Shown here: one piece after another, positions 2,809-31,714 of the stretch
Layout of the letters: each line of letters starts with the position of its first letter
How positions within the stretch are numbered: the first letter of the stretch is position 1
Source of the DNA: an uncultured Bacteroidales bacterium
GTDB taxonomy: Bacteria > Bacteroidota > Bacteroidia > Bacteroidales > Paludibacteraceae
Length of the DNA stretch: 32,744 nucleotides
Direction: 5' to 3'
NCBI GenBank assembly: GCA_902799555.1
Contig: CADCBB010000028.1
Span: 1 to 32,744, forward strand
The notes under the pieces: model-generated
What the model saw: the letters and a program-made list of their open reading frames with translations, nothing else
What the model was told of the DNA's origin: nothing
Database searches by the model: none
Program-made: the position numbers and the translations under genes

Positions 2809-3945
2809 TTATTCTGTATCTTCAGTTGGATCACCCAAATCGCGCTCAATGTCTTCTATGGATGGAAGGGAAGAACGCATATCCTTTGGCAAAACATTAC
2901 CTAATTCGTAGTCCGAGACACCAATAGGCTTATTTATATCACGCAGAGCGTACTCCGCTTTTATCTTGTCCTTCGTACGACATAGCAGCAAACCTATTGT
3001 TTTGTTGTCTCCTTCTCGACATAGGATGTTATCTACTGCCGAACAATAGAAGTTTAGTTTGCCGATATACTCTGGCATAAACTCTGTGTTCTTTAGCTCG
3101 ATGACCATATACCGGTGCATAAAGGTATTGTACATCAGCAGATCAATATAATAATCATCACCACTAACTTCTAAATGATACTGCCTTCCCATAAATGCGA
3201 AGCCTGTTCCCATTTCAAGCAAGAACTTTTCCACTTCTCTAACCAATCCCAATTCGATATCCCGCTCGTCAAACTTCTCTGTGAAAGTAAGCATGTCGAA
3301 CAAGTACGGATCTTTCAGCATGGATTTGACTTCCTCTGCTTCCGGTTGAGGAAGTGCCAAGTCAAAATTGTTTGCCAATGCGCCATGCTGCTTGTAGTAA
3401 TCCATTTTTATTGCATCGATCAGAAAATCTTTTGACCAATGATTGGTAATGGACTGTACCATATACCAGTAGCGTGCCTGAATGTCCTTTACACGTTGGA
3501 TAAGGATAATATTATGCGTCCATGGCAAATGGATGATAGGAAGAGAAAAATTATACTTCGGTAATTGCGCAACCGCCGGTTGCGTATTTACTTTTTCTAA
3601 TTGTGCAATCGGCAGTTGCGCAATTATATCTGTGTCTTTGGGGAGCGTCAGTTCTTGGTTGTATTCCTCGTAGAACTGAATCATGCACTGGCAGTTGCGC
3701 ACAGAGAAGCCCTTAATTTCCGGGTAGTCATTGCGCATATCTACGGACAAACGTTTGAGTGCACCATTTCCCCAACCAATCTGCTTTTGCGCATCGGAAA
3801 GGATATGACCGACATCCCAATACATCCTCAACACCTCATCATTGGCTGAATAGATGGCGCGTTGCTGCGCCAATAGAACACGCTTCTTGACTTGCGCAAG
3901 AAGACGCAAGTAATCAAATCGCTCTGTTTGTTTAGTTTCTGCCAT
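2809..3945 (-). CDS. DUF1016 (YhcG-type) PD-(D/E)XK nuclease-domain protein
   Basis: The 378-aa product has the DUF1016 layout. An N-terminal domain carries YWDVGHIL and GWGNGALKRLS; a linker is followed by HLPWTHNIILIQRVKD and NHWSKDFLIDAI; the C-terminal nuclease-like core has DDYYIDLLMYN, then VIELKN, then PEYIGKLNFYCSAVDN. The aspartate and the ExK pair match a PD-(D/E)XK active site. The family is often found beside restriction systems, but its reaction is not well defined. The frame is open upstream to 4062, yet a -7/-33 promoter at 3967-3998 lies between, so the ATG at 3945 (MAETKQTERF) is the real start. The linker holds short in-frame repeats of IAQL/VAQLP, matching repeated TTGCGCAA-like DNA at about 3559-3628, perhaps a hypervariable segment. 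Confidence 0.88.
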   Translation of the reverse strand: MAETKQTERFDYLRLLAQVKKRVLLAQQRAIYSANDEVLRMYWDVGHILSDAQKQIGWGNGALKRLSVDMRNDYPEIKGFSVRNCQCMIQFYEEYNQELTLPKDTDIIAQLPIAQLEKVNTQPAVAQLPKYNFSLPIIHLPWTHNIILIQRVKDIQARYWYMVQSITNHWSKDFLIDAIKMDYYKQHGALANNFDLALPQPEAEEVKSMLKDPYLFDMLTFTEKFDERDIELGLVREVEKFLLEMGTGFAFMGRQYHLEVSGDDYYIDLLMYNTFMHRYMVIELKNTEFMPEYIGKLNFYCSAVDNILCREGDNKTIGLLLCRTKDKIKAEYALRDINKPIGVSDYELGNVLPKDMRSSLPSIEDIERDLGDPTEDTE

Positions 3946-3966
3946 CCATTTTTTCAAAATCCGCTG

Positions 3967-3998
3967 CAAAGGTACTACTTTTTTACGAATTATGCAAG
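3967..3998 (-). promoter_or_regulatory. Promoter of the DUF1016 gene
   Basis: On the minus strand CTTG (3998-3995) is followed after exactly 20 bases by TACCTTTG (3974-3967). Transcription would begin just upstream of the ATG at 3945, which fixes the start of that gene. Confidence 0.75.
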
Positions 3999-4134
3999 AG
4001 TTTTGGAGAAAAAAAATGCGGCGGGCGGCACGCGCAGCATACGTATCCCCCCTAAACAACAAAAGGACGTTTCTTCACATCATGAAATGATGTACTTGCC
4101 AAAACTAACCGATGGCACATACACGCCGCATGGG

Positions 4135-4239
4135 GGCTTGCGGAGCGGGCAGGCCCTCGGCGTTTGTAGCATGGCAGGGCATGATACAAAGACGAGGGAC
4201 GCTCCGCAAGCCAGGAATGTCAGCTCGTGGAGAGCTGAC
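4135..4239. repeat. GC-rich nested hairpin element upstream of uvrA
   Basis: Positions 4135-4147 pair perfectly with 4200-4212 (13 bp). Inside, CCCTCG (4154-4159) pairs with CGAGGG (4193-4198), and TTTGTA (4163-4168) pairs with TACAAA (4185-4190). A second hairpin, GTCAGCTC and GAGCTGAC (4219-4226 with 4232-4239, 8 bp), follows. The element is more GC-rich than its surroundings and ends about 80 bases before the uvrA -33 box. It could be a small RNA, a miniature mobile element or a DNA structure; I do not recognise it. Confidence 0.6.
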
Positions 4240-4319
4240 GGCGAGGGGCTAATCTGCCTATGCCCGAGCCACCTTGTGACACAAGAAATTATGAAAAAAA
4301 AATCATTTTGTGCTAAAAA

Positions 4320-4351
4320 TTTGCGTATATCGTAAAAAAGTAGTAATTTTG
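4320..4351 (+). promoter_or_regulatory. uvrA promoter
   Basis: TTTG at 4320-4323 and TAATTTTG at 4344-4351, with a 20-base spacer, match the Bacteroidota consensus. The start codon at 4399 is 48 bases downstream. Confidence 0.8.
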
Positions 4352-4398
4352 TGCGCAAATTGGAGATTGGAGATTGAAGATTGAAGAATGATTGGAGA

Positions 4399-7053
4399 AT
4401 GGTAAAGGACGAAGGACATATAGAGGTGCTGGGGGCGCGGGTGCATAACCTGAAGAACATCAGCGTATCGATCCCGCGCAAGCGGTTGACGGTGATCACC
4501 GGCCTGAGCGGGTCGGGAAAGAGTTCGTTGGCCTTCGACACGATCTTCGCGGAGGGTCAACGGCGCTATATGGAGACGTTCTCGAGTTACGCCCGGGGTT
4601 TCATCGGCCAGATGCAGCGGCCCGACGTAGATAAGATAACAGGCCTCAGCCCTGTCATCTCCATCGACCAGAAGACGACGAGCAAGAACCCGCGGTCGAC
4701 GGTAGGTACGGTGACGGAAGTGTATGACTTCCTGCGTCTGCTCTTTGCCCGCGCGGCTGTTCCCTACTCCTACCTATCCGGCAAGCCGATGGTGAAAATG
4801 ACCGACGAGCAGATCATCGACCTCATCGTACGCGAGTACGCGGGGAAGAAGATCCTCCTCCTGGCGCCGATGGTGAGCGGCCGAAAGGGCCATTACAAAG
4901 AGCTCTTCGAGACCGTCCGCAAGAAAGGCTTCGTACATGTGCGGGTCGATGGCGAGGTGCAGGAGATCGTCAAGGGGATGAAACTGGATCGGTACAGCGT
5001 CCACAACATTGAGGTAGTGGTGGACCGGCTCAAGATCCGGTCGAATGATGAAAATGATGTACGCAGACTGCGGCAATCGATTGACCAGGCGATGACGCAA
5101 GGGAACGGGATACTAATGATCGCTGCGCTCAATGGTGAAATGAGCGCGGACAAGCCGCTCAATGGTGTACGTTATTTCTCGCGCACCCTCATGGATCCGG
5201 AGACGGGACTGAGCTATCCCGAGCCGGCGCCGCATACCTTCTCTTTCAATAGCCCGTCGGGCTGGTGTCCGTGCTGCAAAGGACTGGGGAAGGTGAAAGC
5301 CAATGATGTATTGATGAATGGTGACGCTACGCTAAATGGTGCAATCGATGAGGCGATAAAGCAGGATAACTGGTGGGAATTGTTAACGAGTGAAGTGAAT
5401 GATGCCAATGATGAGAAAGATGAAAATGATGCTGAGGAATATGTCGTTTGTCCGGAGTGCGGAGGAAAGCGATTGAGCAAAGAGGCGCTGAGCTACAAGA
5501 TCGGGAAGTATAATATCGACGAGCTGGCGACGATGGATCTGGATGTCCTTCTGGTAACGTTGAACGAGTTAACGAGTGAAGGAGTTAATGAATTAACGGA
5601 GAAGCAGAAGGCGATAGCGGAGCCGATATTAAAGGAGATCTGCGCGCGGTTACGGTTCATGCAGTCGGTCGGCCTGAGCTATTTGAGTCTGAGTCGAAGC
5701 AGCGAGAGCCTCAGCGGCGGCGAGAGCCAGCGTATCCGTCTGGCCACGCAGATAGGCAGCCGGCTCGTCAACGTGCTCTATATTCTGGACGAGCCCTCGA
5801 TAGGCCTGCACCAACGCGATAACGAACGCCTGATTCGGAGCCTCAAAGAGCTGCGGGACATGGGTAACTCTGTCATCGTAGTCGAACACGACGAGGCGAT
5901 TATGCGGGAGGCGGACTGGATCGTGGATATCGGGCCGAAAGCGGGACGCTTAGGCGGCAAAGTGCTCTTTAGCGGGACGCCGGAAGAGCTGCTGAAGACG
6001 GACACATTAACGGCGCAGTACTTGAAGGGCGAGAAAGCCGTTATGACGTCATGTCGTCATGACGTTATGACGAAAGGATGGCTCACCCTCTCCGGCTGCA
6101 CGGGTAATAATCTGAAAGATGTGACGGTGAAGATTCCGCTGGGACAGATGGTATGCGTGACCGGCGTGAGCGGAAGCGGCAAATCGAGCCTGATCAACCA
6201 GACGCTCTACCCCATCCTCAGCCAACATTTCTACCGCAGCAAGCAAGTACCTTTGCCGTACAAGAAGATCGAGGGCTTGGAGCTAATCGACAAAGTAATC
6301 AACGTCGATCAGTCGCCTATCGGTCGCACGCCGCGATCAAACCCCGCGACCTACACGAACGTCTTCAGCGATATACGAGAGCTCTTCGCCGCCATTCCGG
6401 AATCCAAGATTCGCGGCTGGAAGATCGGACGGTTTAGCTTCAACGCCAAAGGCGGACGATGCGAGGAGTGCTTGGGCAACGGCTACAAGACGATCCAGAT
6501 GCATTTTATGCCGGATGTGTATGTGCCCTGCGAGGCCTGCGGCGGACAGCGGTACAACCGTGAGACCTTAGAGGTACGCTGGAAAGGTAAGACGATCGCC
6601 GACATACTGGATATGACAGTGAACCAGGCCGTGGAGTTCTTCGAGCCGCAGCCGACGATCCTCCGTAAGATCAAGACCATCCAGGATGTGGGCTTGGGAT
6701 ATATCAAATTAGGCCAAGCGTCCACAAGCCTCAGCGGCGGCGAGAGCCAGCGTATCAAACTCGCGACGGAGTTGGCGAAGCGGAGTACGGGCAAGACGCT
6801 CTATATCCTCGACGAACCGACAACGGGTCTGCATTTCGAGGATATCCGCGTGCTGCTGGGCGTACTACGGCAATTGGTCGATAAGGGTAACACCGTCCTG
6901 ATCATCGAGCATAACACAGATGTCATACGCGCCTGCGATTATATTATCGATATGGGACCCGAAGGCGGAAGGGGCGGCGGACAGGTCGTTGCCTACGGCA
7001 ACATTGAGCAAATTCGCGCTAATGCTGAAAGCATTACCGGCAAATTTATTTAA
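4399..7053 (+). CDS. uvrA: Excinuclease ABC subunit A
   Basis: UvrA is the damage-sensing ATPase of nucleotide excision repair; it loads UvrB onto damaged DNA. This 884-aa protein has two ABC modules. Walker A motifs are GLSGSGKSS near residue 37 and GVSGSGKSS in the second half; signature motifs SGGESQRIRLA and SGGESQRIKLA are followed by LDEPSIGLH and LDEPTTGLH. Cysteine pairs seen include CPCC, CPECGGKR and CEEC/CEAC in the zinc-finger region. In the first insertion, before FSFNSPSGW, the CxxC pair I would expect in many UvrA proteins is missing. At 884 aa it is short for the family (usually about 930-950). The ATG at 4399 is preferred over TTG at 4381. Low-complexity inserts (NDANDEKDENDAEE; LNELTSEGVNELTEK) come from short DNA repeats. 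It is probably co-transcribed with the antiporter gene 30 bases downstream. Confidence 0.96.
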   Translation: MVKDEGHIEVLGARVHNLKNISVSIPRKRLTVITGLSGSGKSSLAFDTIFAEGQRRYMETFSSYARGFIGQMQRPDVDKITGLSPVISIDQKTTSKNPRSTVGTVTEVYDFLRLLFARAAVPYSYLSGKPMVKMTDEQIIDLIVREYAGKKILLLAPMVSGRKGHYKELFETVRKKGFVHVRVDGEVQEIVKGMKLDRYSVHNIEVVVDRLKIRSNDENDVRRLRQSIDQAMTQGNGILMIAALNGEMSADKPLNGVRYFSRTLMDPETGLSYPEPAPHTFSFNSPSGWCPCCKGLGKVKANDVLMNGDATLNGAIDEAIKQDNWWELLTSEVNDANDEKDENDAEEYVVCPECGGKRLSKEALSYKIGKYNIDELATMDLDVLLVTLNELTSEGVNELTEKQKAIAEPILKEICARLRFMQSVGLSYLSLSRSSESLSGGESQRIRLATQIGSRLVNVLYILDEPSIGLHQRDNERLIRSLKELRDMGNSVIVVEHDEAIMREADWIVDIGPKAGRLGGKVLFSGTPEELLKTDTLTAQYLKGEKAVMTSCRHDVMTKGWLTLSGCTGNNLKDVTVKIPLGQMVCVTGVSGSGKSSLINQTLYPILSQHFYRSKQVPLPYKKIEGLELIDKVINVDQSPIGRTPRSNPATYTNVFSDIRELFAAIPESKIRGWKIGRFSFNAKGGRCEECLGNGYKTIQMHFMPDVYVPCEACGGQRYNRETLEVRWKGKTIADILDMTVNQAVEFFEPQPTILRKIKTIQDVGLGYIKLGQASTSLSGGESQRIKLATELAKRSTGKTLYILDEPTTGLHFEDIRVLLGVLRQLVDKGNTVLIIEHNTDVIRACDYIIDMGPEGGRGGGQVVAYGNIEQIRANAESITGKFI

Positions 7054-15801: not shown

Positions 15802-15874
<73 letters not shown>

Positions 15875-15877
15875 CAC

Positions 15878-21994: not shown

Positions 21995-22394
21995 TGCGGT
22001 AATAATTGATGTTGTTACAGATCTCGAGGCGGGTCTCGTCTGAGGCGGATTGCTCGGAAAGCCAGCGAGCGGTGAGGGATTGCTCCATGCTGGCGGAGAT
22101 AAGGATACAGCCTTTACTGTGCTCAGGTTGAGAGCCGCGGTGGAATCGTATGCCGGAACGTCCGGGTACTTGGATGAGTATAGGCAGTAGGCGTTTGAAA
22201 CGCGGTGACTGCGTGACTTGAACTTTGTAGATCAAGGCGGGAACGAGGTAGTCGGCGTTTTCGAGGGTGTCGCAGATGAAGTGCAGACGCTCCACGAGGA
22301 GGCCGGTACGCTTATTGATGTAGTGCGAGGTGCGATACAATTTACCATGAACGGATTTTCCGTCAGGCATATCGCGGATTAACTTATAGTACAT
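21978..22394 (-). CDS. DUF5675 family protein (phage lysis-associated type)
   Basis: The 138-aa product has the DUF5675 pattern: GKLYRTSHYINKRTG, FICDTLENADYLVPALIYKV, SPRFKRLLPILIQVPGRSGIRFHRGS, and EHSKGCILIS. Such domains often sit in phage lysis or tail modules and in proteins with YkuD-like or lysozyme-like neighbours; a catalytic activity is not established. The conserved IRFHRG and GCILIS elements, with their His and Cys, are present. It lies between a two-TM small protein upstream and a tiny hydrophobic protein downstream, which together resemble a lysis cassette. Confidence 0.78.
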   Translation of the reverse strand: MYYKLIRDMPDGKSVHGKLYRTSHYINKRTGLLVERLHFICDTLENADYLVPALIYKVQVTQSPRFKRLLPILIQVPGRSGIRFHRGSQPEHSKGCILISASMEQSLTARWLSEQSASDETRLEICNNINYYRNEKRI

Positions 22395-22459
22395 AAAACC
22401 ATTTACGATTTAATCATTTACGATGTACGATTTATTTAGCCATTGAGTCATTTAGCCAT
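22395..22459. repeat. Short direct repeats between island genes
   Basis: Repeated CATTTACGAT, ACGATTTA and AGCCATT units fill the gap. No promoter or terminator is visible. Confidence 0.55.
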
Positions 22460-22651
22460 TTATTGCTTGCGCTTGTAAACGTAGTCGATGCCGAACAGAG
22501 CACCTGCAAACGTCGCAGTCTCGCCGAAGGCGACGAGCAAAGTCTCGTGGATTTGTCCTTGCGGGTCGATAAAGACGCCGCAGAAGAGTAAGATGAGTCC
22601 GCCGATGGAAAGAACTGTGGCGGTGATGAGTTGCAGGTGATCTGATCGCAT
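22460..22651 (-). CDS. Small two-TM membrane protein, holin-like
   Basis: The 63-aa protein begins MRSDHLQLITATVLSIGGLI and has two hydrophobic helices (about residues 8-28 and 38-55) and a basic C-terminus (YVYKRKQ). Size and topology resemble small phage holins, and the next gene is the DUF5675 protein, but no holin family motif is recognised. I chose the ATG at 22651 over 22693 because a promoter-like pair at 22679-22711 precedes it. Confidence 0.65.
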   Translation of the reverse strand: MRSDHLQLITATVLSIGGLILLFCGVFIDPQGQIHETLLVAFGETATFAGALFGIDYVYKRKQ

Positions 22652-22678
22652 AGTCGTGTGAATTTTTAAAATCTGGTG

Positions 22679-22711
22679 CAAATATGCCCACAATTTTGGC
22701 GGTTTTGCAAA
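22679..22711 (-). promoter_or_regulatory. Promoter-like pair before the two-TM protein
   Basis: On the minus strand TTTG (22711-22708), a 21-base spacer and CATATTTG (22686-22679), one mismatch from TAnnTTTG. It would serve the two-TM, DUF5675 and 35-aa genes. Confidence 0.5.
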
Positions 22712-22738
22712 TTTTTTTCCAAAAAGTTTTCCAACTCA

Positions 22739-22882
22739 TCACCACGCGTAGCGTAGAAAGGCGGTGATATTGTCGTCAGTGACAGGTTGTCCGAAGCATT
22801 CGATCAGGATGAGCAGATGCTTGATTGGGATGACTTGTCCGGCTCTGCGATTGAGCCGATCGTGTATTTCGTGCGTGGTCAT
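22739..22882 (-). CDS. Small 47-aa protein, translationally coupled
   Basis: The frame starts MTTHEIHDRLNRRAGQVIPI and ends TAFLRYAW. Its ATG overlaps the stop of the upstream 145-aa gene as ATGA (22882-22879), the classic coupling arrangement, which is the main reason to call it real. It is predicted helical, has no transmembrane segment and matches no family I know. Confidence 0.6.
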   Translation of the reverse strand: MTTHEIHDRLNRRAGQVIPIKHLLILIECFGQPVTDDNITAFLRYAW

Positions 22883-23316
22883 GATGCTTGTTTTTTAGAG
22901 TTTTTACGACGTGATTGGCTCGGGTTTGGTACGGGTTTAGTGCGGGAATGGCTCGGTCTGGTCTCGCAAAAACGCCGATAGTAAGCGGACATGATTGCGG
23001 CTTGCAGTTTGGTGGGGGCCTTGATACCCGGTGACAGGAGTTTGTATAGTCTCAGGATACGATTGCGAATGGTGGTTCGCATGGCGAGTGCTTTCTCGAT
23101 GTCGGGGATCTGCTCTTGCAGGATCGTGACGCATTGGTCGACGATGGAGCGTTGGCGGAACTGAGCACGCTGCTTGCGGGTGGCGTTCTTTGGCAGGACG
23201 GGTTCTTCAGTGCGATACATGAAGGTGTGACCGTTCATGGTGCGATAGGTGATACGTCCGATAGAGCCGGAGAGGGATTGAATCGGTTGATTCTTTGCGA
23301 ATGTTATACGTGCCAT
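22879..23316 (-). CDS. Conserved basic island protein, 145 aa
   Basis: The N-terminus MARITFAKNQPIQSLSGSIG and the following ITYRTMNGHTFMYR look like a short beta-rich module. The middle (PVLPKNATRKQRAQFRQRSIVDQ) and the helix that follows are strongly basic, and the C-terminus is a basic tail (SRRKNSKKQ). I recall similar uncharacterised proteins in Bacteroidales phage-like loci but know no function. The charge suggests nucleic-acid binding. An 8-bp inverted repeat lies just upstream of the ATG. Confidence 0.72.
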   Translation of the reverse strand: MARITFAKNQPIQSLSGSIGRITYRTMNGHTFMYRTEEPVLPKNATRKQRAQFRQRSIVDQCVTILQEQIPDIEKALAMRTTIRNRILRLYKLLSPGIKAPTKLQAAIMSAYYRRFCETRPSHSRTKPVPNPSQSRRKNSKKQAS

Positions 23317-23325
23317 AATATATAG

Positions 23326-23398
23326 GTTTTTAATAAATTAAAAACGTTAAATAGTTAAATGGTTAAAATGGTTTTGATTGCATCAAAACGTTAAATTG
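23326..23398. repeat. AT-rich gap with two inverted repeats and direct repeats
   Basis: GTTTTTAA pairs with TTAAAAAC (23326-23345), and GTTTTGA pairs with TCAAAAC (23371-23389). The 12-mer AAAACGTTAAAT occurs twice (23341, 23385), with GTTAAAT-like units between. The second hairpin directly follows the winged-helix gene stop and may act as a terminator or an operator for the next gene. Confidence 0.5.
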
Positions 23399-24196
23399 TT
23401 ACTTTTTCTCTTTGGGTGGAAGGGGAAGGGCGAAGTCTTCGATGTCGCGGAGGGAGTAGAGACCATAGGAGCCGTTGTAGCGGGCGGTCTTGGCTTGTCC
23501 GGCGGCGAGCATCTCTCCACCTTTGGCAGTGCCGTTGAGGTTGACCGGTTGAGGATTGAAGGCAGTGAGCGTCCAATCGAGGCGGGGTCTGCACCAGCCG
23601 TTGGGATCGTTGAGGATCTCGAAGAGTCGGAGTCGTTTCCAGAGGGGGAAGTGGTTCCAGAGGTTACGGCAGTCTTCGCGCATGGATTCGGCAAGTTGGA
23701 AGTTCCCTACCCGCTTGCGGAAGAAGAAAAGAAGTCTTTCAAAAGAAGTTTGGTCTTTAGGGTCAGGCGTCGCGATTGTATCGCGCGCAATAATTTCATT
23801 ACTTTTCATTGTTTCATTATTTATAATGGGGTCGGATTTTTGTTCGTCAGCCGAACACTTTTGTTCGTGTGGCGAACGGGTTTGTTCGTTAGCCGAACAG
23901 GTTTGCTCGTGTGTCGAACACGGGTGTTCGGCATCTGAACAAGGGTGTTCACCTGCCGATCGGTAGACGTTCGCGTCGCGAACAATGAGACCCCGGTTGA
24001 TTAATTCTGTTAGTTGGTTGCTGACCGTCGCGATTGGCAGTTCGAGTTGAGCTGCCAAGTCGCGTTGAGAGCCACACCAGGCACCCTTCACCGCGGTGTA
24101 GTTGGCGATATGCGCGTACACGAGGCGAAGATAGAGGTTACGCGTGCCGAGTATGGCGACGAGTTCCTGATGCCGTATGTTGGTGTGGAAGGTCAT
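23399..24196 (-). CDS. Winged-helix protein with heptad repeat linker, possible replication or regulatory protein
   Basis: The 265-aa product has an N-terminal winged helix (residues about 10-75; helix-turn-helix SQRDLAAQLELPIATVSNQL, then the wing LINRGLIVRDANVYR). A linker at about 80-120 is built of heptads of the form E(Q/H)xCSxx (EHPCSDA, EHPCSTH, EQTCSAN, EQTRSPH, EQKCSAD). A C-terminal domain (about 145-265) contains LFFFRKRVG, WCRPRLDWTLTAFNPQPVNLNG and YNGSYGLYSLRDIEDF. The encoding DNA of the linker is an exact 21-bp array of dyads, so the gene may carry its own binding sites. The start overlaps the upstream stop by one base. The architecture recalls Bacteroidales plasmid and phage initiator-like proteins; I cannot prove replication. 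Confidence 0.7.
   Translation of the reverse strand: MTFHTNIRHQELVAILGTRNLYLRLVYAHIANYTAVKGAWCGSQRDLAAQLELPIATVSNQLTELINRGLIVRDANVYRSAGEHPCSDAEHPCSTHEQTCSANEQTRSPHEQKCSADEQKSDPIINNETMKSNEIIARDTIATPDPKDQTSFERLLFFFRKRVGNFQLAESMREDCRNLWNHFPLWKRLRLFEILNDPNGWCRPRLDWTLTAFNPQPVNLNGTAKGGEMLAAGQAKTARYNGSYGLYSLRDIEDFALPLPPKEKK
23841..23987. repeat. 21-bp iteron-like array of inverted repeats inside the winged-helix gene
   Basis: Six units start at 23841, 23862, 23883, 23904, 23925 and 23946, exactly 21 bp apart. The consensus is TGTTCG-N5-CGAACA plus four bases, each unit a dyad. A seventh, shifted unit (GTTCG..CGAAC, about 23967-23987) follows. Mismatches in units 2, 4, 5 and 6 fall on one arm only in each case. 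The spacing is two helical turns, putting all sites on one face of the DNA. On the minus strand the array encodes the heptad linker. Confidence 0.85.
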
Positions 24197-24579
24197 TAGT
24201 CAAGTCCTACGCATTTGAGGTTAAACGTGAATTCTTTAGCCTTCTTAGCGTATTTCTTCTTGAAGGCTTTGAGGAGACCGCTCATCTTGGTGGTGAGTTC
24301 AGAAGCAAGACGACGGTATCCATCGCGTTCTTTCTCTTTCTTGCGATACTCGATGGCTTCCTCGGACGTGGATTTCTCGATGTTGAGGATCGGATCTTTG
24401 TCGAGGACGAAGTCGCCGATTCCGTCGATGGTGAACTTGCCGCCGTCGGGTTGGATGAGTTTGGCTTCATCTTCTGCAAGGGGTTTAACACGTGCGATAT
24501 CAGCCTTGATGGCTTTTTCTTGGATACGAAGTGAGCGTAAGAGCTCGATGTTTTCGGTTTTAAATTCAGTTGTTTCCAT
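24196..24579 (-). CDS. Coiled-coil island protein, 127 aa
   Basis: The ATG at 24579 (METTEFKTENIELLRSLRIQ) is preferred to 24618, because a promoter lies at 24616-24623. The protein is rich in K, E and L and probably forms long helices at both ends, around a short central segment (GGKFTIDGIGDFVLDKDPIL). No family is recognised. Its stop overlaps the winged-helix ATG by one base, so the two are coupled. Confidence 0.7.
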   Translation of the reverse strand: METTEFKTENIELLRSLRIQEKAIKADIARVKPLAEDEAKLIQPDGGKFTIDGIGDFVLDKDPILNIEKSTSEEAIEYRKKEKERDGYRRLASELTTKMSGLLKAFKKKYAKKAKEFTFNLKCVGLD

Positions 24580-24615
24580 AATTGTTGTTGTTTTAAGGCG
24601 CCGGATACTATCCAG

Positions 24616-24623
24616 CAAAATTA
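24616..24623 (-). promoter_or_regulatory. -7 box of the coiled-coil/winged-helix transcript
   Basis: TAATTTTG on the minus strand, 36 bases before the ATG. A TTTG occurs 23 bases further upstream, slightly longer than the usual spacing. Confidence 0.55.
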
Positions 24624-24661: not shown

Positions 24662-25423
24662 CTAGATCTCACAATGGTGGGTCATGTCATACTCCATTTG
24701 GTCGAAGGAGGGGTCGCGGTAGTACTTGGAGATCATCTGATCGAACTCGTCTTGCGGCATGGTGAGCCAGCGACGGAAGTCATCAGGGGTGAAGACGCCG
24801 CCGAAGAGGGGACTCAACAGGTCTCGGAGTTTGGTGAGACGGGTCGTGAGGACGGACATGTCTGAGATGATCTTCGGATTGAGGAAGACATCCAGAATGT
24901 TGTACGGCACTTGGACGGGGTCGACGTCGATGGAGCGGAGCGCCTTGAGGACTTTGCTTCGACGACGGTTCTCCTTTTTGGACACCCATTCGAGGTTGTC
25001 GTTGGAATAGTCGGTGACGCAGCCGTTCTTGTGGTCTCCTTCGAAGGGTTTGCCGTCTTCACCAATGGGTCGCGGTCCTTGGAACGTAAGAAGGACGATG
25101 ATATGGCAATACCATGCGCCATAATCACGCATTTGCGGATAGTCGTTTCCTCGTTTGCCGTTATGGCAATGCATGCCGGGTGTTCTCCAGCTGATACCGA
25201 AGTTATCGAAGACCTCGGTGAGTTTACCGCGGCAAAGCGAGAAGAAATGCATTTTTCCATCCGAATAGAGAAGCGATTTGACTCGCCGCTTGTCGGGGAT
25301 GACGCATTTGGTGAGGGTGAGTTGTTTGCCATCCGCCGAACAGGCGTGTATGACGCGAGGGTCATAAAGATCGCGGGCAAACCACACGATTTTGATTTTG
25401 GGATTTCTAATACGCATAGGCAT
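24662..25423 (-). CDS. HNH endonuclease (homing/phage type)
   Basis: This 253-aa protein has a central HNH module: FEGDHKNGCVTDYSNDNLEWV, with the DH pair, the bridging asparagines and the NLEWV ending usual for HNH_3-type homing and phage endonucleases, then KKENRRRSK. Upstream of it is HCHNGKRGNDYPQMRDYGAW; the C-terminal third is helical. Such enzymes nick or cut DNA and are frequent free-standing genes in phage-like loci. The frame is open to 25555, but a -7 box at 25460-25467 means the start is the ATG at 25423 or the one two codons later (25417). Confidence 0.82.
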   Translation of the reverse strand: MPMRIRNPKIKIVWFARDLYDPRVIHACSADGKQLTLTKCVIPDKRRVKSLLYSDGKMHFFSLCRGKLTEVFDNFGISWRTPGMHCHNGKRGNDYPQMRDYGAWYCHIIVLLTFQGPRPIGEDGKPFEGDHKNGCVTDYSNDNLEWVSKKENRRRSKVLKALRSIDVDPVQVPYNILDVFLNPKIISDMSVLTTRLTKLRDLLSPLFGGVFTPDDFRRWLTMPQDEFDQMISKYYRDPSFDQMEYDMTHHCEI

Positions 25424-25459
25424 CGGATCTCGGAGGGATGTTATCTCCGAAAAGCGGTG

Positions 25460-25467
25460 CAAAGGTA
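25460..25467 (-). promoter_or_regulatory. -7 box before the HNH endonuclease gene
   Basis: TACCTTTG on the minus strand with no TTTG at the usual distance. CTTGTGCAT repeats lie directly upstream (25481-25500) and could bind an activator or repressor replacing the -33 contact. Confidence 0.6.
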
Positions 25468-25480
25468 GAGGTTTTTGGAT

Positions 25481-25612
25481 CTTGTGCATGGCTTGTGCAT
25501 AGTTGACGCACAAGCGCACAAAAAAAGCGACCCGTCGGGATCGCTTATAAATCAAGGGAAGAGACGCAATTTAGAAAAAATGCTTGTGCATGCTTGTGCG
25601 TCCTTGTGCATG
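25481..25612. repeat. Cluster of CTTGTGCRT repeats around the HNH gene promoter
   Basis: Copies on the plus strand are at 25481, 25492, 25583, 25593 and 25603; inverted copies are at 25506-25514 and about 25514-25521. The last three plus-strand copies are exactly 10 bp apart. They flank the transcription terminator of the upstream gene and precede the -7 box of the HNH gene. They look like protein-binding sites. Confidence 0.7.
25519..25546 (-). terminator. Terminator of the 182-aa gene
   Basis: On the minus strand a 9-bp stem with one bulge (AAGCGA and CCC against GGG and TCGCTT) is followed by seven T residues. It starts 70 bases past the stop of the upstream gene and separates it from the HNH gene. 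Confidence 0.85.
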
Positions 25613-25615
25613 ACA

Positions 25616-26164
25616 TTAGAAATAGTCACACACGTCTTCGTACATAACTTTGTCGTATCCGTTTTTGATCATCACACCGAGTGCATTTGCGATTGCACGG
25701 TCAGCGACACGGTCGGTTTGGAGTGAACAGGTGTCGGTGAGGAAACGGAGTACGGCAGAAGGACTATATTTGGATTCGATATAGCGGAGGTTGCGCCATT
25801 TGACGCAGAAACAAACAACCGCTTTGAGGATAGGATTGTCTTGGCTGCTGTCGATGAGTCGGGAGCGGATATTATGATCGGAAAGGAAATTGAGGAAACG
25901 GTTTCGTTCCTCTTCGGTACGTTTAGGATCATCGAAGAGTTGTTTGAGACGCGGCTCTTTCTCGGAATGAGATTCTTTACCCACAGGGGGTACGATTGTT
26001 TCCGATTTAACAGACGAAGAGGGAATATCTTCAGCGCGGTCAGACATGAAAGCACGAATTAGGTCGGCGGGGTTAGTGCCGGCAGGGACGTGGATAGTTG
26101 CCTCTTTATGATGGTCGTTATAGGTACCGATATGGACGATGCCTCCAAAATTCTTGATGCTCAT
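25616..26164 (-). CDS. Hypothetical protein at the upstream end of the island, 182 aa
   Basis: The protein begins MSIKNFGGIVHIGTYNDHHK, a glycine- and histidine-containing beta-like stretch, followed by a polar linker (about 45-75) and a helical domain (about 80-182) with FLSDHNIRSRLIDSS, KAVVCFCVKWRNLRYIE and ADRAIANALGVMIKNG. No family is recognised. The ATG at 26164 is chosen because the frame further upstream runs through the hairpin leader. It is the first gene after the island promoter and has its own terminator, a place often taken by a regulator, but no helix-turn-helix can be shown. Confidence 0.65.
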   Translation of the reverse strand: MSIKNFGGIVHIGTYNDHHKEATIHVPAGTNPADLIRAFMSDRAEDIPSSSVKSETIVPPVGKESHSEKEPRLKQLFDDPKRTEEERNRFLNFLSDHNIRSRLIDSSQDNPILKAVVCFCVKWRNLRYIESKYSPSAVLRFLTDTCSLQTDRVADRAIANALGVMIKNGYDKVMYEDVCDYF

Positions 26165-26208
26165 ATGCATAAAATTAAAAGCATGGAATAGATGGGGCTC
26201 CCAACTGC

Positions 26209-26294
26209 ATCGGCAAATGCACAAAGATACCCCACCTATCCATGCAGACCATGGATAATGGGGCACATTCTCATCTTTGTTAAATTTTGCCGAT
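26209..26294. other. Nested 86-base hairpin leader upstream of the island's first gene
   Basis: Pairings are 26209-26217 with 26286-26294 (9 bp), 26221-26228 with 26273-26280 (8 bp), 26230-26234 with 26259-26263 (5 bp) and 26237-26244 with 26250-26257 (8 bp), all perfect and coaxial, with a 5-base terminal loop. It lies in the leader between the promoter (26333-26364) and the ATG at 26164. A TATCTTTG sequence at 26229-26222 overlaps the second helix but has no -33 box, so I treat it as part of the hairpin. Confidence 0.75.
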
Positions 26295-26371: not shown

Positions 26372-29300
26372 TTAATTTTCTATATTAATATTGGTACTAA
26401 GGTCGTTATACGTGTCGATGTGGATATGAAATTCGGCGAACTCATAGATATCGTAGAAACGTTCGAAGTAAGCGCAGAGTTTCTCCAGAACGCGCTGTTT
26501 GGTTGCGGCACGTTCGTTATTGGGACTGAAGAGCGGTAGCGGCGGGAGGCATTGGGTGATAGCCGTACCTTGCATCTCCACTTCCCCTGTCTGGAATGCC
26601 TTGCGCACAAAAGCGATCGTTTCTTCACGTTTGAGGTTCTCTGATACGATGATCTCATCGAGTTGCTGCATCGCTTGCTCATGCACAAAACTCATCCACT
26701 GCTTGCCAATCTCTTTGTCGGGCGAGTAGCGTTTAACAAAGGCATCAATGAGTTCGCGTTTATTGCGCAAAGCAGGGCTGGAGCCGATTGCTTTGGAGAG
26801 CAGTTCTTCGAGGGTCGGGCCATCCACCACTTTGTCCTTGCCGTATTTCTTGGCAATGAGTTCGAGGATGTAATCGATATTGATCTCCACCTGTTTGATG
26901 AGTTCGATCTCGAAGGTAAGGTCATCGTTGATATCGACCGCATCGCCTTCCGTATGATGACGGTATTTCTCGCTGAGATCGAGGTAAACGGACTTATAGT
27001 CTTGCTCGGCAAAGTCGGAGATGTAGTTGGGTTTGTCTTCTTCGAAGCGATCAAAGGTGTTGAGCAGATTGACCATGCGGAGATAGGAACCAAAGAGCCG
27101 GATAAACTCTTTCTCTTTTTCTTCTCCTGCGAGCGGCATGCTCGCCGGATCCGGGAAGAGTTGTTTGAGTGCATCGACAATCTTGGCAAAACCGATATGC
27201 TTCTTGCCGTTCTCGTCGGTATAGCCGTTGATATAATCGTCGTACGACTTGAGCAGGACGATGTTACAAGCGTTCTTATCACCAAAGAGCGTGATCGCAT
27301 CATTGGTCTCTTTCTCCAGATTGCGGAAACAAACGATGTTACCAAACTGCTTGATGGTGTTGAGGATACGGTTGGTGCGGCTGTAAGCCTGCATGAGACC
27401 ATGCTGACGCAGGTTCTTGTCCACCCAGAGGGTGTTGAGGGTCGTTGCATCGAAACCGGTGAGGAACATATTGACCACGATGAGCATGTCCAGTTCGCGA
27501 TTCTTCATGCGGTTGGACAGGTCTTTGTAGTAGTTACCGAACTGATCGGAGGACGTATCGAAATTGCAGCCGAACATGTCGTTATAGTCGGCGATTGCTG
27601 CTTCGAGGAAGTCGCGTGACGATTTGTCTAACTTGGCCGCACTATCACTGTTCTCTTCATCGAGAATACCGTTCAGTTCGACCTCTTCGTTCGCTCCATA
27701 GCTATAGATGAGGGCTATCTTCAGACGTTTGTCTTCAGGTAGCAGATCCTGCTGACGCTGGAACTCCGTGTAATATAGTTTGGCGGCTTCGATGGAAGCG
27801 GTTGTGAGGATGGAGTTGAAACCTGTGACGCGTTTATCGTCCAGTTTGTAGGTACGATTGCGATAGGTCTTCAGGTCAAAGTGCTGCAAGATATACTCCA
27901 CGATATTGTGGATTCGTTCGGGAGCCATCAATGCCCGTTCACGGTCGATATCGCGCACCTCAGCATCCTCGATTCCATCTTTCATTCCTACGGTCTTGAT
28001 GTACTCGACACGGAACGGCAGGACGTTCTCATCGGCAATCGCATTGATGACCGTGTAGGTATGCAGACAATCGCCAAAGGTCTGTGCGGTGGTGAGCAAT
28101 GCCTGCTGCGCGTTCTCCGGGAAAATAGGCGTACCGGTGAAGCCGAAGATATGGTATTTGTTGAAGCGCTTTACGATCAGTTTGTGCATATCGCCGAACT
28201 GCGAACGATGACACTCATCAAAGATGATGACGACGTGTTTGTCGTAGATCGGGTGCTTATGCTCAGACTTACAGAACTGGTTGAGTTTTTGGATAGTCGT
28301 GATGATGATACGATCTTTGTCCTTACTCAACTGCTCGTGCAGTACGGCGGTTGATTTGTTATGACTGACGCACCCTTTCTTGAACTTCTCGTATTCGCGC
28401 ATGGTCTGATAGTCGAGATCCTTGCGGTCCACGACGAACAGCACTTTGTCCACGTATTCGAGTTGGGTACATAGTTGTGCGGTCTTGAAGGATGTGAGGG
28501 TCTTGCCGGAACCGGTTGTGTGCCAAATGAAACCGCCTGCGTCAATCGTACCCATTTTGCGTTGGTTGGTAGCGATGAGGACTTTTTGCAGGATGGCCTC
28601 GGTTGCAGCGATTTGATAGGGTCGCATCACCATCAGTTTTTGGTCCGCAGTAAAGACGCAATAGCGGGTGAGAATATTTAGAAGCGTATGCCGCGCAAAG
28701 AAGGTTGCTGTGAAGTCCGTCAGTTCACGGATAGGCGTGTTCTCGCGGTCAGCCCAATAGGAAGTGAATTCAAACGAATCGCAGGTCTTGGTGCCATCTT
28801 CGAGGATGGCATCGTTGGGTTTCTTGCGGTTCAGCTCGGTAAACGCTCCTCGGCTGGTTGTGTTGGAGTAGTATTTGGTTTCTGTACCATTACTGATGAC
28901 GAACAGTTGGACGTAGTCAAACAGACCATTATCCACACCGAACGCATCGCGGTGATAGCGGTTGATTTGGTTGAACGCCTCTTTGATGGCGACACCGCGT
29001 TTCTTGAGTTCGATATGGACCATCGGAAGACCGTTGACGAGGATCGTTACATCGTAACGGCATTTGCGTTTTCCGGAATCGGCTTTGTACTGATGGATGA
29101 CCTGCAGGCGGTTCTCGTGGATATGCTTCTTGTTAATCAGTTTGATGTTCTGGAAAGTGCGATTATCGCGAATGAGCACCAACTGTGAGGTCTTGTCATC
29201 TTGCAGAAGCGTAGTCTTGTCTTTGAACGATGCCCCTTGGTTCGCAAGGTGTACGCGGAAGAAACCTTTCCACTCGTTGTCGGTGAACGTGATGCCGTTG

Positions 29301-29500
29301 AGGAGTTCTAACTGCTTGCGGAGGTTGGATTCCAATTCCTCGCTGGTATGGATATCGAGATACTCATAACCTTGCGCTTTCAGCTGCTCGATGAGGGCAT
29401 CTTCCAACTGCGCCTCGCTTTGGTAAGCGGTGCGTGGAGATGGCTTGTATTCGTATTTGGATACAACCGTCGATTGCGGGTTTTCAGCGATTAGTTTCAT
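26372..29500 (-). CDS. hsdR: Type I restriction enzyme R subunit (EcoR124I-like)
   Basis: The 1042-aa motor and nuclease subunit has an N-terminal PD-(D/E)XK nuclease (Asp150 in RYDVTIL; Glu164 and Lys166 in HIELKK, followed by EAFNQINRY), then a superfamily 2 translocase with Walker A TTGSGKT (328-334), IFDECHRSQFG, FTGTPIF, and DMLIVVNMFLTGFD followed by RTNR. A helical C-terminal domain binds the methylase. The full set of motifs and normal length indicate a functional gene. Together with HsdM and HsdS it would translocate and cut unmodified DNA. It starts 6 bases after the hsdM-hsdS fusion and shares its transcript. Confidence 0.96.
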   Translation of the reverse strand: MKLIAENPQSTVVSKYEYKPSPRTAYQSEAQLEDALIEQLKAQGYEYLDIHTSEELESNLRKQLELLNGITFTDNEWKGFFRVHLANQGASFKDKTTLLQDDKTSQLVLIRDNRTFQNIKLINKKHIHENRLQVIHQYKADSGKRKCRYDVTILVNGLPMVHIELKKRGVAIKEAFNQINRYHRDAFGVDNGLFDYVQLFVISNGTETKYYSNTTSRGAFTELNRKKPNDAILEDGTKTCDSFEFTSYWADRENTPIRELTDFTATFFARHTLLNILTRYCVFTADQKLMVMRPYQIAATEAILQKVLIATNQRKMGTIDAGGFIWHTTGSGKTLTSFKTAQLCTQLEYVDKVLFVVDRKDLDYQTMREYEKFKKGCVSHNKSTAVLHEQLSKDKDRIIITTIQKLNQFCKSEHKHPIYDKHVVIIFDECHRSQFGDMHKLIVKRFNKYHIFGFTGTPIFPENAQQALLTTAQTFGDCLHTYTVINAIADENVLPFRVEYIKTVGMKDGIEDAEVRDIDRERALMAPERIHNIVEYILQHFDLKTYRNRTYKLDDKRVTGFNSILTTASIEAAKLYYTEFQRQQDLLPEDKRLKIALIYSYGANEEVELNGILDEENSDSAAKLDKSSRDFLEAAIADYNDMFGCNFDTSSDQFGNYYKDLSNRMKNRELDMLIVVNMFLTGFDATTLNTLWVDKNLRQHGLMQAYSRTNRILNTIKQFGNIVCFRNLEKETNDAITLFGDKNACNIVLLKSYDDYINGYTDENGKKHIGFAKIVDALKQLFPDPASMPLAGEEKEKEFIRLFGSYLRMVNLLNTFDRFEEDKPNYISDFAEQDYKSVYLDLSEKYRHHTEGDAVDINDDLTFEIELIKQVEINIDYILELIAKKYGKDKVVDGPTLEELLSKAIGSSPALRNKRELIDAFVKRYSPDKEIGKQWMSFVHEQAMQQLDEIIVSENLKREETIAFVRKAFQTGEVEMQGTAITQCLPPLPLFSPNNERAATKQRVLEKLCAYFERFYDIYEFAEFHIHIDTYNDLSTNINIEN

Positions 29501-29506
29501 ACGGCT

Positions 29507-31714
29507 TTAACTCTTAATGCAATCATCGGATTTGTCAGCAGAATTGCTTTCTGAGTGTGGCGTAAGTAGTCGGGTACGATAGTACTCGTACTGCTTACGA
29601 CGCATTTGCAGCTCCGCTTGCAGCTCCGCTTGCAGCTCCGCTGCGAGTACCGAGAATTTATCGAGGTACTCGACGATTTTTTTTTGAATTTCGAGGGGTA
29701 ATAGAGGTATTCTAATAGATCCTACTTTTTGTGTATTAATAGTAGGGACCCCGCCTTCACTTTGCATTCCTCTAATGGTTTCTTCGTTATTTTTTAGATA
29801 GTAATAAAGAAACTTTACTAAAAAGCGTTGCTTATAATCATTCTTCGGAATAATAGTAAAACACTTATCATTAAGATAGAACTCTTCTTCTATGAAGTTT
29901 ACAAATCCAGCATTAGCTCCAACCCGCGAGATGGTGATTGTATTTGCATCTCTGTTTTTTAGATGATAGTATCCCATAGGACCAACCCCTCCACTAATGA
30001 TGGGATATTTTCCTCCTTCTGTGGCATCTTTTTGAGTTATCCCTTTGCCGGTTTTAATTTCACATGTTTCACCGAGCGTTTTCCATTCTGAATTATTAAG
30101 CAGGCTGTCAAGTTCCCCGGATATCATTTTGTCTATAGTCTCACGTAAGACAGCACCACGCGCAACAATCTCTTTCAGTTCGGCATTGAGGGCATCGATG
30201 TCGATATGTTCACGTGTGTCTTCTTGCTCCACGTAGGAGTTGACGGAGAGGTTATAACTATTGTCCGCAATAACCGTATTGCTAATCAAAGCGCTTAAGT
30301 GCTGTTCCTCTTTACGGCGGGTATAAAGACCGAGGATGCGGCTGATATTCTCTTCCGTCAGTTTGTTCTTGTTACCCTCGTGGATAAACTCATTCGAGGC
30401 ATCGATAAACAGCACTTTGTTGTCCGTCTTGTTCTTGCGGATGACGATGATACAGGTAGCAATAGACACGCCGAAGAAGAGGTTAGCCGGCAGTTGGATA
30501 ACTGCATCGACATAGTTGTTGTCAATCAGATACTGGCGTATCTTCTGTTCTGCTCCGCCACGATAGAGGACACCCGGGAACTCAACGATAGCAGCTGTAC
30601 CATCGGTAGCCAGCCAAGAGAGCATGTGCATCGTGAAAGCCAAATCGGCTTTTGATTTAGGCGCAAGGACTCCAGCAGGCGAGAAACGGCGGTCGTTAAT
30701 GAGGACAGGATCGTCATCGCCTTTCCATTTGATCGAGTACGGCGGATTAGACACGATGACATCAAACGGCTGGTCATCCCAGTGTTGCGGTTCGAGCAGT
30801 GTATCACCCAACGCGATGCTGAAATGATTATAGTTGATGTCGTGCAGGAACATGTTGATGCGACAGAGGTTGTAGGTAGTCTGGTTGATCTCCTGACCGA
30901 AGAAACCTTGCTGCACGTTCTCTTTTCCGAGCACTTTGGCAACCTGCATGAGGAGCGAGCCGGAACCACAAGCAGGGTCATAGACCTTGCGCACCTTGGT
31001 CTTATTCTGCGTAGCGATACGTGCAAGGAGTTCACTTACTTCCTGAGGCGTGAAGAATTCACCGCCCGACTTGCCTGCATTGCCTGCGTACATCTTCATA
31101 AGGAACTCATACGCATCGCCGAACGCATCGATACGGTTCTCTTTCGGTCCTTCAAGGTTCATGTCGCCGACTGCATCTAAGATACGTGCGAGACGTTCGT
31201 TACGCTTATCGACCGATGAGCCGAGTTTGGTGGAGTTGACATCGAGGTCATCAAACAGACCTTTCATGTCGTCCTCGGAGTCGGTACCAATAGCGGACGC
31301 TTCGATGGACTTGAACGCTTTGTCGAGGGTCATGTTCAGTTGATCATCGTGGTGGGCACGCTTGCGAACATTGCAGAAAAGTTGAGACGGCAGGATGAAG
31401 AATCCTTTCTCTGCTACGATGCTGGCGCGAGCGGATTCCGCTTTGACATCATCAAACGCAGCATAGTCGAAATTGGGATAACCGGCTTTGCGTTGTTCCT
31501 CGTTGATGTAGTTGGTGATATTCTCCGAGATATAGCGATAGAAGAGCATGCCGAGGACATACTGTTTGAAGTCCCAACCATCTACCGAACCGCGCAGTTC
31601 GTTTGCGATTGCCCAGATGGATCTAAATAACTCTTGTTTTTGTTGCGTTGATGTTGCCATAAGTTCTAAAAATTGTTGCTCGTTGAGAGCACTTTCTAAT
31701 TTATAGTTTTGCAT
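29507..31714 (-). CDS. Type I restriction-modification HsdM-HsdS fusion with a single target-recognition domain
   Basis: The 735-aa chain joins two subunits. Residues 1-535 are an EcoR124I-type adenine methyltransferase: N-terminal helical domain, [15 protein letters not shown] (218-232), AdoMet motif [11 protein letters not shown] (246-255), and catalytic NPPY (323-326). After [12 protein letters not shown] comes an HsdS-like part: one recognition domain starting [20 protein letters not shown] (543-562) through [10 protein letters not shown], then the conserved helix [19 protein letters not shown] leading into AELQ x3 (692-703). Normal HsdS has two recognition domains in about 400 aa; this has one in about 190. 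Two such chains could pair to read a symmetric site. The MQNYK start has a matching promoter. Confidence 0.93.
29606..29641. repeat. Three perfect 12-bp tandem repeats in the HsdS part of the fusion
   Basis: TTGCAGCTCCGC occurs three times without mismatch (29606, 29618, 29630) and encodes [12 protein letters not shown] on the minus strand, in the conserved coiled-coil helix. In-frame 12-bp units can gain or lose copies by slippage. Confidence 0.9.

Follow-up and report, generated by a model that had tools for sequence, protein, structure and literature searches.

Why would a gene for a small winged-helix protein carry, within its own coding sequence, a phased array of palindromes that the encoded protein might itself bind? 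The question arises from a 32,744 nt stretch of DNA from an uncultured Bacteroidales bacterium (contig CADCBB010000028.1; hereafter the window, meaning the whole stretch analysed), for which a first-pass annotation had proposed that the same DNA may be both protein linker and replication or autoregulatory site. Our comparative analysis partly confirms the observation behind that proposal, and supports the interpretation placed on it. A few phages and plasmids are known to carry origins of replication inside genes. In the present case, a single genus provides a natural experiment, with about 50 arrays in which reading frame, peptide and palindrome can be separated. An in-gene initiator–iteron origin of the lambda O or RepA_N kind, carried on an island-like cassette, is probably the best explanation of the array, judging from the sequence comparisons described below.

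The array in the window gene

As the annotation had stated, an array of dyads lies within a winged-helix gene, the minus-strand ORF at 23399–24196, which is an intact frame of 265 codons. The gene and its surroundings comprise the following features.

23399..24196, minus strand: initiator-like gene, 265 aa, with an N-terminal winged helix, a dyad-encoded linker and a C-terminal domain
23978..24133, minus strand: helix-turn-helix (HTH)/winged-helix domain, about residues 22–73, matched by Pfam HTH_36 and PHROG 270
23996..24037, minus strand: putative recognition helix (PIATVSNQLTELIN), placed from the HTH alignment; this segment and the dyad vary together
23402..23809, minus strand: C-terminal domain, residues 130–265, which also occurs by itself in other cassettes
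23841..23962: six 17-bp dyads in 21-bp register, starting at 23841, 23862, 23883, 23904, 23925 and 23946
23968..23984: seventh dyad, after a 22-bp step, in the wing of the HTH and in another codon frame, encoding IVRDANV
23788..23832: AT-rich stretch adjoining the array, 78% AT, candidate unwinding region
23771..23785: G+C-rich inverted repeat CGCGAT-TGT-ATCGCG, past the AT-rich stretch; similar ones occur in some homologues, with weak statistics

Seven 17-bp dyads of the TGTTCG-N5-CGAACA type thus span 23841–23984, their centres lying 220–347 bp inside the gene. The array had been described as exact and as made of six units. Six units do stand in exact 21-bp register and encode the heptad linker (CSADEQ, RSPHEQ, CSANEQ, CSTHEQ, CSDAEH and RSAGEH), but only two of the seven dyads are perfect copies (23841 and 23883), whereas four carry one mismatch (23862, 23904, 23925 and 23968) and one carries three (23946). 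The seventh dyad has to be added to the earlier count; since its codons fall in another frame, the dyads extend further than the heptads even inside the window. The annotation had also taken substitutions falling in one arm as a hint of selection; for single mismatches this is trivial, and gives no information on selection.

The repeat scored above chance in TRF (93, 118 and 127). Of 32 scored positions in the array, 23 are paired; 200 synonymous recodings averaged 16.2 and never attained 23, and the array also exceeded random permutation of its 21 columns (p=0.010). The raw number of dyads in the window with up to three mismatches is unremarkable (14, against 17 expected by shuffling); it is clustering and register, not raw count, that set the array apart. 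Perfect dyad matches occur just twice in the 2.34-Mb draft genome, both within the array. One-mismatch dyads, counted with a possible wider regulon in mind, occur at seven places elsewhere in the genome, a modest excess over the three obtained with a control pattern.

At 85% AT, the 40-mer at 23788–23827 is equalled or exceeded by 0.11% of window 40-mers; the cassette region has its AT maximum elsewhere, in intergenic DNA near 23320–23330, where 40-mers are as rich or richer. The G+C-rich inverted repeat beyond the array reached p<0.05 in just five of 58 genes (three sequences were too short). The HTH_36 match of the window protein (E 1.4e-4) is under the curated cut-off.

Homologues

When 300 genomes of the family were searched with a single sequence, 32 gave a match. 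A profile built from 25 proteins matched 106 of 178 in-genus genomes, in many cases partially, and 13 of 393 genomes drawn from the order, of which three belong to the genus and ten lie outside it; these ten matches are weak (best E 8.6e-7). Those relatives that have record titles are metagenome-assembled genomes of uncultured Bacteroidales, two of them with RUG names, which we take to mean rumen. No significant relative was found in IMG/VR with the window protein or with a six-sequence alignment, among phage records with the window protein or three homologues, or among plasmid records with the window protein.

The fetched loci yielded 66 HTH-containing ORFs. Five were set aside, namely L111, L113 and L122, which lie outside the genus and come from two of the ten weakly matching genomes, and the in-genus L155 and L156, which have an HTH only and no linker, and in which 23–24 of 63 positions self-match at lag 21. 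The remaining 61 in-genus arrays were analysed. Several initiator ORFs are shortened (L144, L145, L150–L152, L155 and L156): L145, L151 and L152 extend to where the stored contig stops, L144 and L150 are terminated early, and the HTH alone is present in L155 and L156, without linker or array.

Dyads are retained in the DNA while the peptide changes

The best self-match lag was 21 or 42 bp in 57 of the 61 in-genus ORFs (the exceptions being L008, L013, L019 and L101), a periodicity that is partly selected, since arrays were placed by their best 21-bp self-match. Conditional on that placement, palindromy exceeded each array's own synonymous-codon null in 52 of 61 cases at p<0.05 and in 46 at p<0.01, and 45 of 61 arrays passed the column-permutation test at p<0.05; because related sequences are not independent, pooled p-values overstate the support. 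Nine arrays did not exceed the synonymous null (L008, L019, L048, L097, L101, L135, L137, L140 and L149), among which L019 and L135 keep repeated dyads at shifted spacing.

The linker heptads are unrelated between homologues (CSxxEQ, TAPVQKN, TNCPKIG, TSVQNGR, SADTISV and others), and the 21-bp palindromes are still there, so that the dyads do persist when the linker changes; the check proposed in the first-pass annotation thus favours its interpretation. The opposite pattern, heptads kept and palindromes lost through synonymous change, is not the rule, given the number of arrays that beat their own synonymous null. Among the 52 arrays that do so, the dyad centre falls at codon phase 0 in 26, phase 1 in 15, phase 2 in six and at half-steps in five. 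In L019, the motif GACA-N4-GT occurs eight times at spacings of 15–25 bp and in all three reading frames, yielding the peptides TTNCP, DNLST, DNSST, DNLSS, DTLSP, RQIVP, QTNSP and DNLYL; L135 has five dyad motifs in two frames. Conversely, one and the same TGTTCA/TGAACA dyad is read as CSAGEQ in L009 and mostly as VQxxN in L059 and L105. The differing dyad sequences, the differing codon phases and the three frames of L019 together indicate that the palindromes are kept at the level of DNA whilst the peptide changes. As dyads persist across unrelated peptides and frames, selection appears to act on the DNA, and we consider it very probable, from these comparisons, that it acts for binding by the gene's own protein.

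The array also changes by whole units: between the window gene and a relative whose protein is 92% identical, it differs by exactly 84 bp (4×21), or four units. A second in-gene tandem repeat, of ETRHQRCRALDTD-like units, follows the dyad-encoded linker in L059:8793–9803.

Recognition helix and dyad vary together

Across the 52 arrays, dyad distance correlated with recognition-helix distance at r 0.48, compared with 0.38 for the rest of the HTH and 0.20 for the C-terminal domain. A partial Mantel test of dyad against helix, given the rest of the HTH, yielded r 0.33 (permutation p 0.001), whereas the partial correlation of dyad with the rest of the HTH, given the helix, was 0.08. In the window's own subgroup, the helices TVSNQL and TINNQL pair with TGTTCr, and TVRDQL with yACGG. 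Proteins identical over 26 aligned pre-helix columns differ in both helix and dyad: NRTTVYRA goes with GTGCAAAATGCAC, SHMTAHRA with TGTAACAAAATGTTACA, SHETARRA with GACACAAAATGTGAC and SYKTANRA with GGACAAATTGTCC. In the other direction, L138 and L151 have diverged HTH backgrounds, a common helix core (KPTVLRA and HPTVIRA) and the same dyad, TGGTACAAAATGAACCA. Helix and site thus vary in concert, in one subgroup with the remaining scaffold constant; this co-variation, a correlation, is what one would predict were every protein to bind the array in its own gene.

In one subgroup (20 of 22 sequences, two being without the anchor), the helix had the highest pN, 0.264, five-fold that of the segment before it (0.051), the other flank having 0.114. 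Its pN/pS was 0.38 and so below 1, which shows faster change but not positive selection.

Depending on threshold, the dyads fall into 9–35 clusters. We tentatively suggest a radiation of origin specificities within one genus, in which dozens of island-borne initiators, some on near-identical scaffolds, would change helix and in-gene iterons together, the same DNA serving as linker, as binding site and as target of an arms race or of incompatibility pressure. Phage origin-directed nucleases or sister elements, for example, could supply such pressure. The set of about 50 arrays would make the specificity codes of HTH domains and the evolution of replicon incompatibility or escape directly testable. 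Avoidance of incompatibility within genomes was considered and is not supported: 14 within-genome pairs were no more different than between-genome pairs (0.487 vs 0.530, p 0.88).

Relatives outside the genus

Two loci from another family, L111 (1267–2091) and L122 (1309–2115; both in reverse-strand coordinates), are paralogues in one genome (G513). They have nearly the same C-terminal part, differing HTHs and, at the same place in the gene, differing 22-bp repeats, which are followed by AAT-rich codons. These are direct repeats in which no dyad is evident and, 22 not being a multiple of three, the protein does not repeat in step with them. L113, also from outside the genus, has no such 22-bp repeat. 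The pair suggests that HTH and repeat may be swapped as one module while the C-terminal part is conserved, as in the PLE satellites discussed below, and the 22-bp repeats slightly help the reading of the array as an origin.

The cassette and its genomic setting

The window gene stands among minus-strand genes that recur with it in other loci.

24196..24618, minus strand: cassette gene, cluster #2, 128–140 aa, often directly upstream of the initiator
24662..25555, minus strand: cassette gene, HNH endonuclease-like, cluster #4
25616..26266, minus strand: cassette-associated gene, cluster #10
22879..23316, minus strand: cassette gene, cluster #7, 145 aa
21978..22394, minus strand: cassette gene, DUF5675

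The recurrent cassette consists of an HNH-like gene, a 130-aa or WYL_2 gene, the initiator or its C-terminal domain alone, small uncharacterised proteins and DUF5675; it seems to be island-like, recurring in one Bacteroidales genus. The window's genome alone has 11 DUF5675 matches; the initiator profile matches it eight times, seven of these matches being C-terminal only (one of them very weak and one at a contig end). The 21-bp array is absent from those seven loci and from ten further C-terminal-only loci that were examined. In the same genome and genus, stand-alone C-terminal proteins occupy the initiator slot at L070:3918–4334, L071:5533–5877, L073:6731–7111 and elsewhere.

At a RelA-like/recR site, the neighbourhood is uninterrupted in five of nine relatives and G189 has a cassette beside the same gene; as the far flank differs in G189, this does not demonstrate a clean empty site. 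The window's left-hand host gene, present in only four of 61 genomes (its own included), gave no insertion site. tRNA genes occur at two of 33 other loci and in the window at 15802–15875, none of them next to the cassette. REP-associated tyrosine transposase-like genes (cluster #9) lie near six of 25 loci; members are seen at L073:3903–5033 and at L037, L038, L052, L057, L058 and L059, one member having an NCBIfam match of E 4.7e-9 that is under the curated cut-off; these genes may be related to the spread of the cassettes.

Directly upstream of the cassette, at 26372–31714, are ORFs of clusters #8 and #18, which we take to resemble type I restriction-modification genes. Members of the two clusters also lie near other cassette copies (L044, L051, L056, L068 and L069), which suggests defence cargo. 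One 735-aa ORF contains a 12-bp tandem repeat of 3.1 copies (29606–29642), read as AELQ-type four-residue repeats that are reminiscent of the spacer repeats which change type I specificity. Spurious-looking ORFs at 3892–4541, L068:665–949 and L073:2644–2946 contain the same phrase (..MYLPK..GTYTPHGGLRSGQALGVCSM..), a dispersed and probably non-coding repeat of this genome.

A putative origin within the gene

The reading that best accommodates these data assigns the array, with good probability, an origin function. In the proposed mechanism, the protein would be a small replication initiator whose winged helix binds iterons inside its own coding sequence, probably as one dimer per dyad, the array being the binding part of the origin. 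Protein bound to phased 21-bp sites, two helical turns apart, would open the adjoining AT-rich stretch, with host replication proteins being brought in through the C-terminal domain; the heptad peptide would be mostly a by-product of the DNA repeat that serves as a flexible linker. We infer the binding, its stoichiometry, the unwinding, the recruitment of a helicase and the replication of the cassette, and what we computed is the retention of dyads in the DNA, the co-variation with the helix, the adjoining AT-rich DNA and the likeness of the HTH to phage initiators.

An AT-rich unwinding region had been predicted nearby, and by composition such a stretch adjoins the array both in the window and among the 48 genes compared, where AT content is 0.73–0.74 at 10–50 bp beyond the array against a gene mean of 0.51. 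Among the 25 aligned members, at E 0.01, 20 matched PHROG 270 ('replication initiation protein'), 12 matched PHROG 678 ('O-like') and 11 matched a 'DnaD-like helicase loader'. The matches to PHROGs 270, 678 and 345 are weak for the HTH alone: against PHROG 270, residues 1–80 of the window protein gave E 9.8e-5 and the HTH of L059 and L051 gave 0.0025 and 0.047, respectively, while that of L057 gave none, so that the linker helps the full-length matches. No PHROG was matched by the C-terminal pieces from L051, L059 and the window gene. In Pfam, at the same E-value, the 25 members matched 17 families, most frequently HTH_36 and MarR-like profiles, with DnaD_N matched by two members and RepL and Phage_rep_org_N by one each; the RepA_N (PF06970) and lambda-O models were not among the 17. 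No primase, helicase, P-like helicase loader or integrase was recognised among the neighbouring genes scanned. Moreover, C-terminal-only copies in the initiator slot indicate that the cassette can persist without the putative origin, and these copies, together with the missing replication partner, weaken the origin reading.

DnaA boxes were also considered as a component and rejected, as the loose pattern turned up in ten of the 61 genes scanned with their flanks, where it mostly coincided with TGTGCAAAA segments within dyads, and the strict box in L103 only, so that none is conserved.

Alternative explanations

The array could be a genuine but old origin, left in a decayed prophage or plasmid and no longer functional here. 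Such a remnant would fit with the incomplete cassettes and lone C-terminal ORFs of the same genome, and with the lack of significant matches in IMG/VR and in phage and plasmid records. We nevertheless regard this as unlikely, as the window gene is intact over all its codons and most in-genus arrays stand above their synonymous null; that helix and dyads vary together argues that the pair works somewhere, now or recently.

Alternatively, the array may serve the HTH protein as an operator for repressing or adjusting the expression of its own operon, for example by an in-gene roadblock, with no part in replication. The annotation had left replication and autoregulation side by side, and of the two we favour replication. 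An operator would sit well with an array inside the protein's own gene and with HTH_36 and MarR-like profiles as the commonest Pfam matches. However, the dyad centres of the window array lie well within the gene, the profile matches include phage replication-initiation families, and several phased sites with adjoining AT-rich DNA are unusual for an operator. In the flanks of the 52 arrays, searched for up to 1 kb (60.6 kb upstream and 63.0 kb downstream) with up to three mismatches, there were no further dyads, a result that weaker or unrelated operators would escape; since a shuffled consensus gives only 0.1–0.2 matches, this means absence of a further site rather than depletion, and it speaks against an operator with that sequence at the promoter. 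Taken together, these points make the operator quite improbable.

A centromere-like partition site, or a packaging or DNA-structuring site for maintenance or transfer of the island, is very unlikely on our assessment. Partition systems, too, make use of phased arrays to which small DNA-binding proteins attach, and the cassettes look island-like; against this, the scanned neighbours included no recognisable ParA-like or packaging partner, and neither the adjoining AT-rich stretch nor the initiator matches would be predicted.

That the heptads are selected as a structural linker, the palindromes being incidental products of duplication of a palindromic codon string, is hardly tenable, for although tandem duplication and loss certainly shape the array (as the 84-bp difference shows) and six of the seven units in the window stay in the heptad frame, the linker peptides are unrelated across homologues whose dyads persist, 52 of 61 arrays beat the synonymous null, L111 and L122 have 22-bp repeats, and the frame-shifted dyads, found in several frames, in all three within L019 and in the window's seventh unit, have already largely refuted it.

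Relation to known replication systems

In-gene iteron origins are already known; the family, its setting and its possible radiation of specificities look new, and our searches of the open-licence literature yielded no description of this Bacteroidales initiator-like family or island class. The putative origin in the window gene invites comparison with lambda O. According to two reports, lambda iterons are bound by O dimers and the adjacent A+T-rich region is opened (PMC5043065, PMC3985674). The lambda O gene, used as a yardstick, has four annotated iterons mid-gene and then AT-rich DNA, and the family here likewise has inverted-repeat iterons in the middle of a putative initiator gene, followed by an AT-rich stretch. 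The lambda iterons are near-copies that start 20, 24 and 23 bp apart, whereas here the step is mostly 21 bp and there are many different dyads; nor did the family have a lambda-O Pfam match, a recognised P-like partner or a PHROG match for its C-terminal part.

The order of HTH, repeats, AT-rich DNA and C-terminal part is common to lambda O and to pSK41 Rep, a RepA_N protein, in whose gene four Rep boxes lie centrally and the protein part encoded by the origin is dispensable (PMC5703833). Most characterised RepA_N iterons are inverted repeats that converge on a poly-A tract (PMC7145576), and many dyads here converge on such a tract as well, for example TGGTACAAAATGAACCA, though not those of the window. 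As in RepA_N genes, the semi-palindromic repeats encode a central linker, and DnaD_N was matched by two of 25 members. The differences are that PF06970 was unmatched in the 25 members, and that these are chromosome-borne cassettes of Bacteroidales, not plasmids of Firmicutes. As the RepA_N profile test failed, we file the family within the in-gene-origin kind, not as a member of RepA_N or lambda O.

In the PLE satellites of Vibrio cholerae, the N-terminal domain of the initiator and the iterons co-vary while the C-terminal domain is conserved, and the authors suggest that diversification may be selected for by a phage nuclease directed at the origin (PMC8263062). Unlike the arrays here, the PLE origin lies in a non-coding region, and two replicon groups are described (PMC7145576), compared with the 9–35 dyad clusters of this family, for which no phage counterpart is known. 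As regards a phage satellite or PICI-like element, the placement of the cassettes is island-like, and no integrase was recognised among the genes scanned.

The only phage match of L059 was to Bacteroides phage BF486P1, at E 0.8, which is not significant as homology. The gene concerned (22061–22984) is annotated as hypothetical and stands in a phage genome context. It begins with an HTH-like N-terminal part and contains three in-gene GGTGTGGTGAAAATCGCCAC-like repeats, 42 and 23 bp apart and only three units in number, followed by AT-rich DNA.
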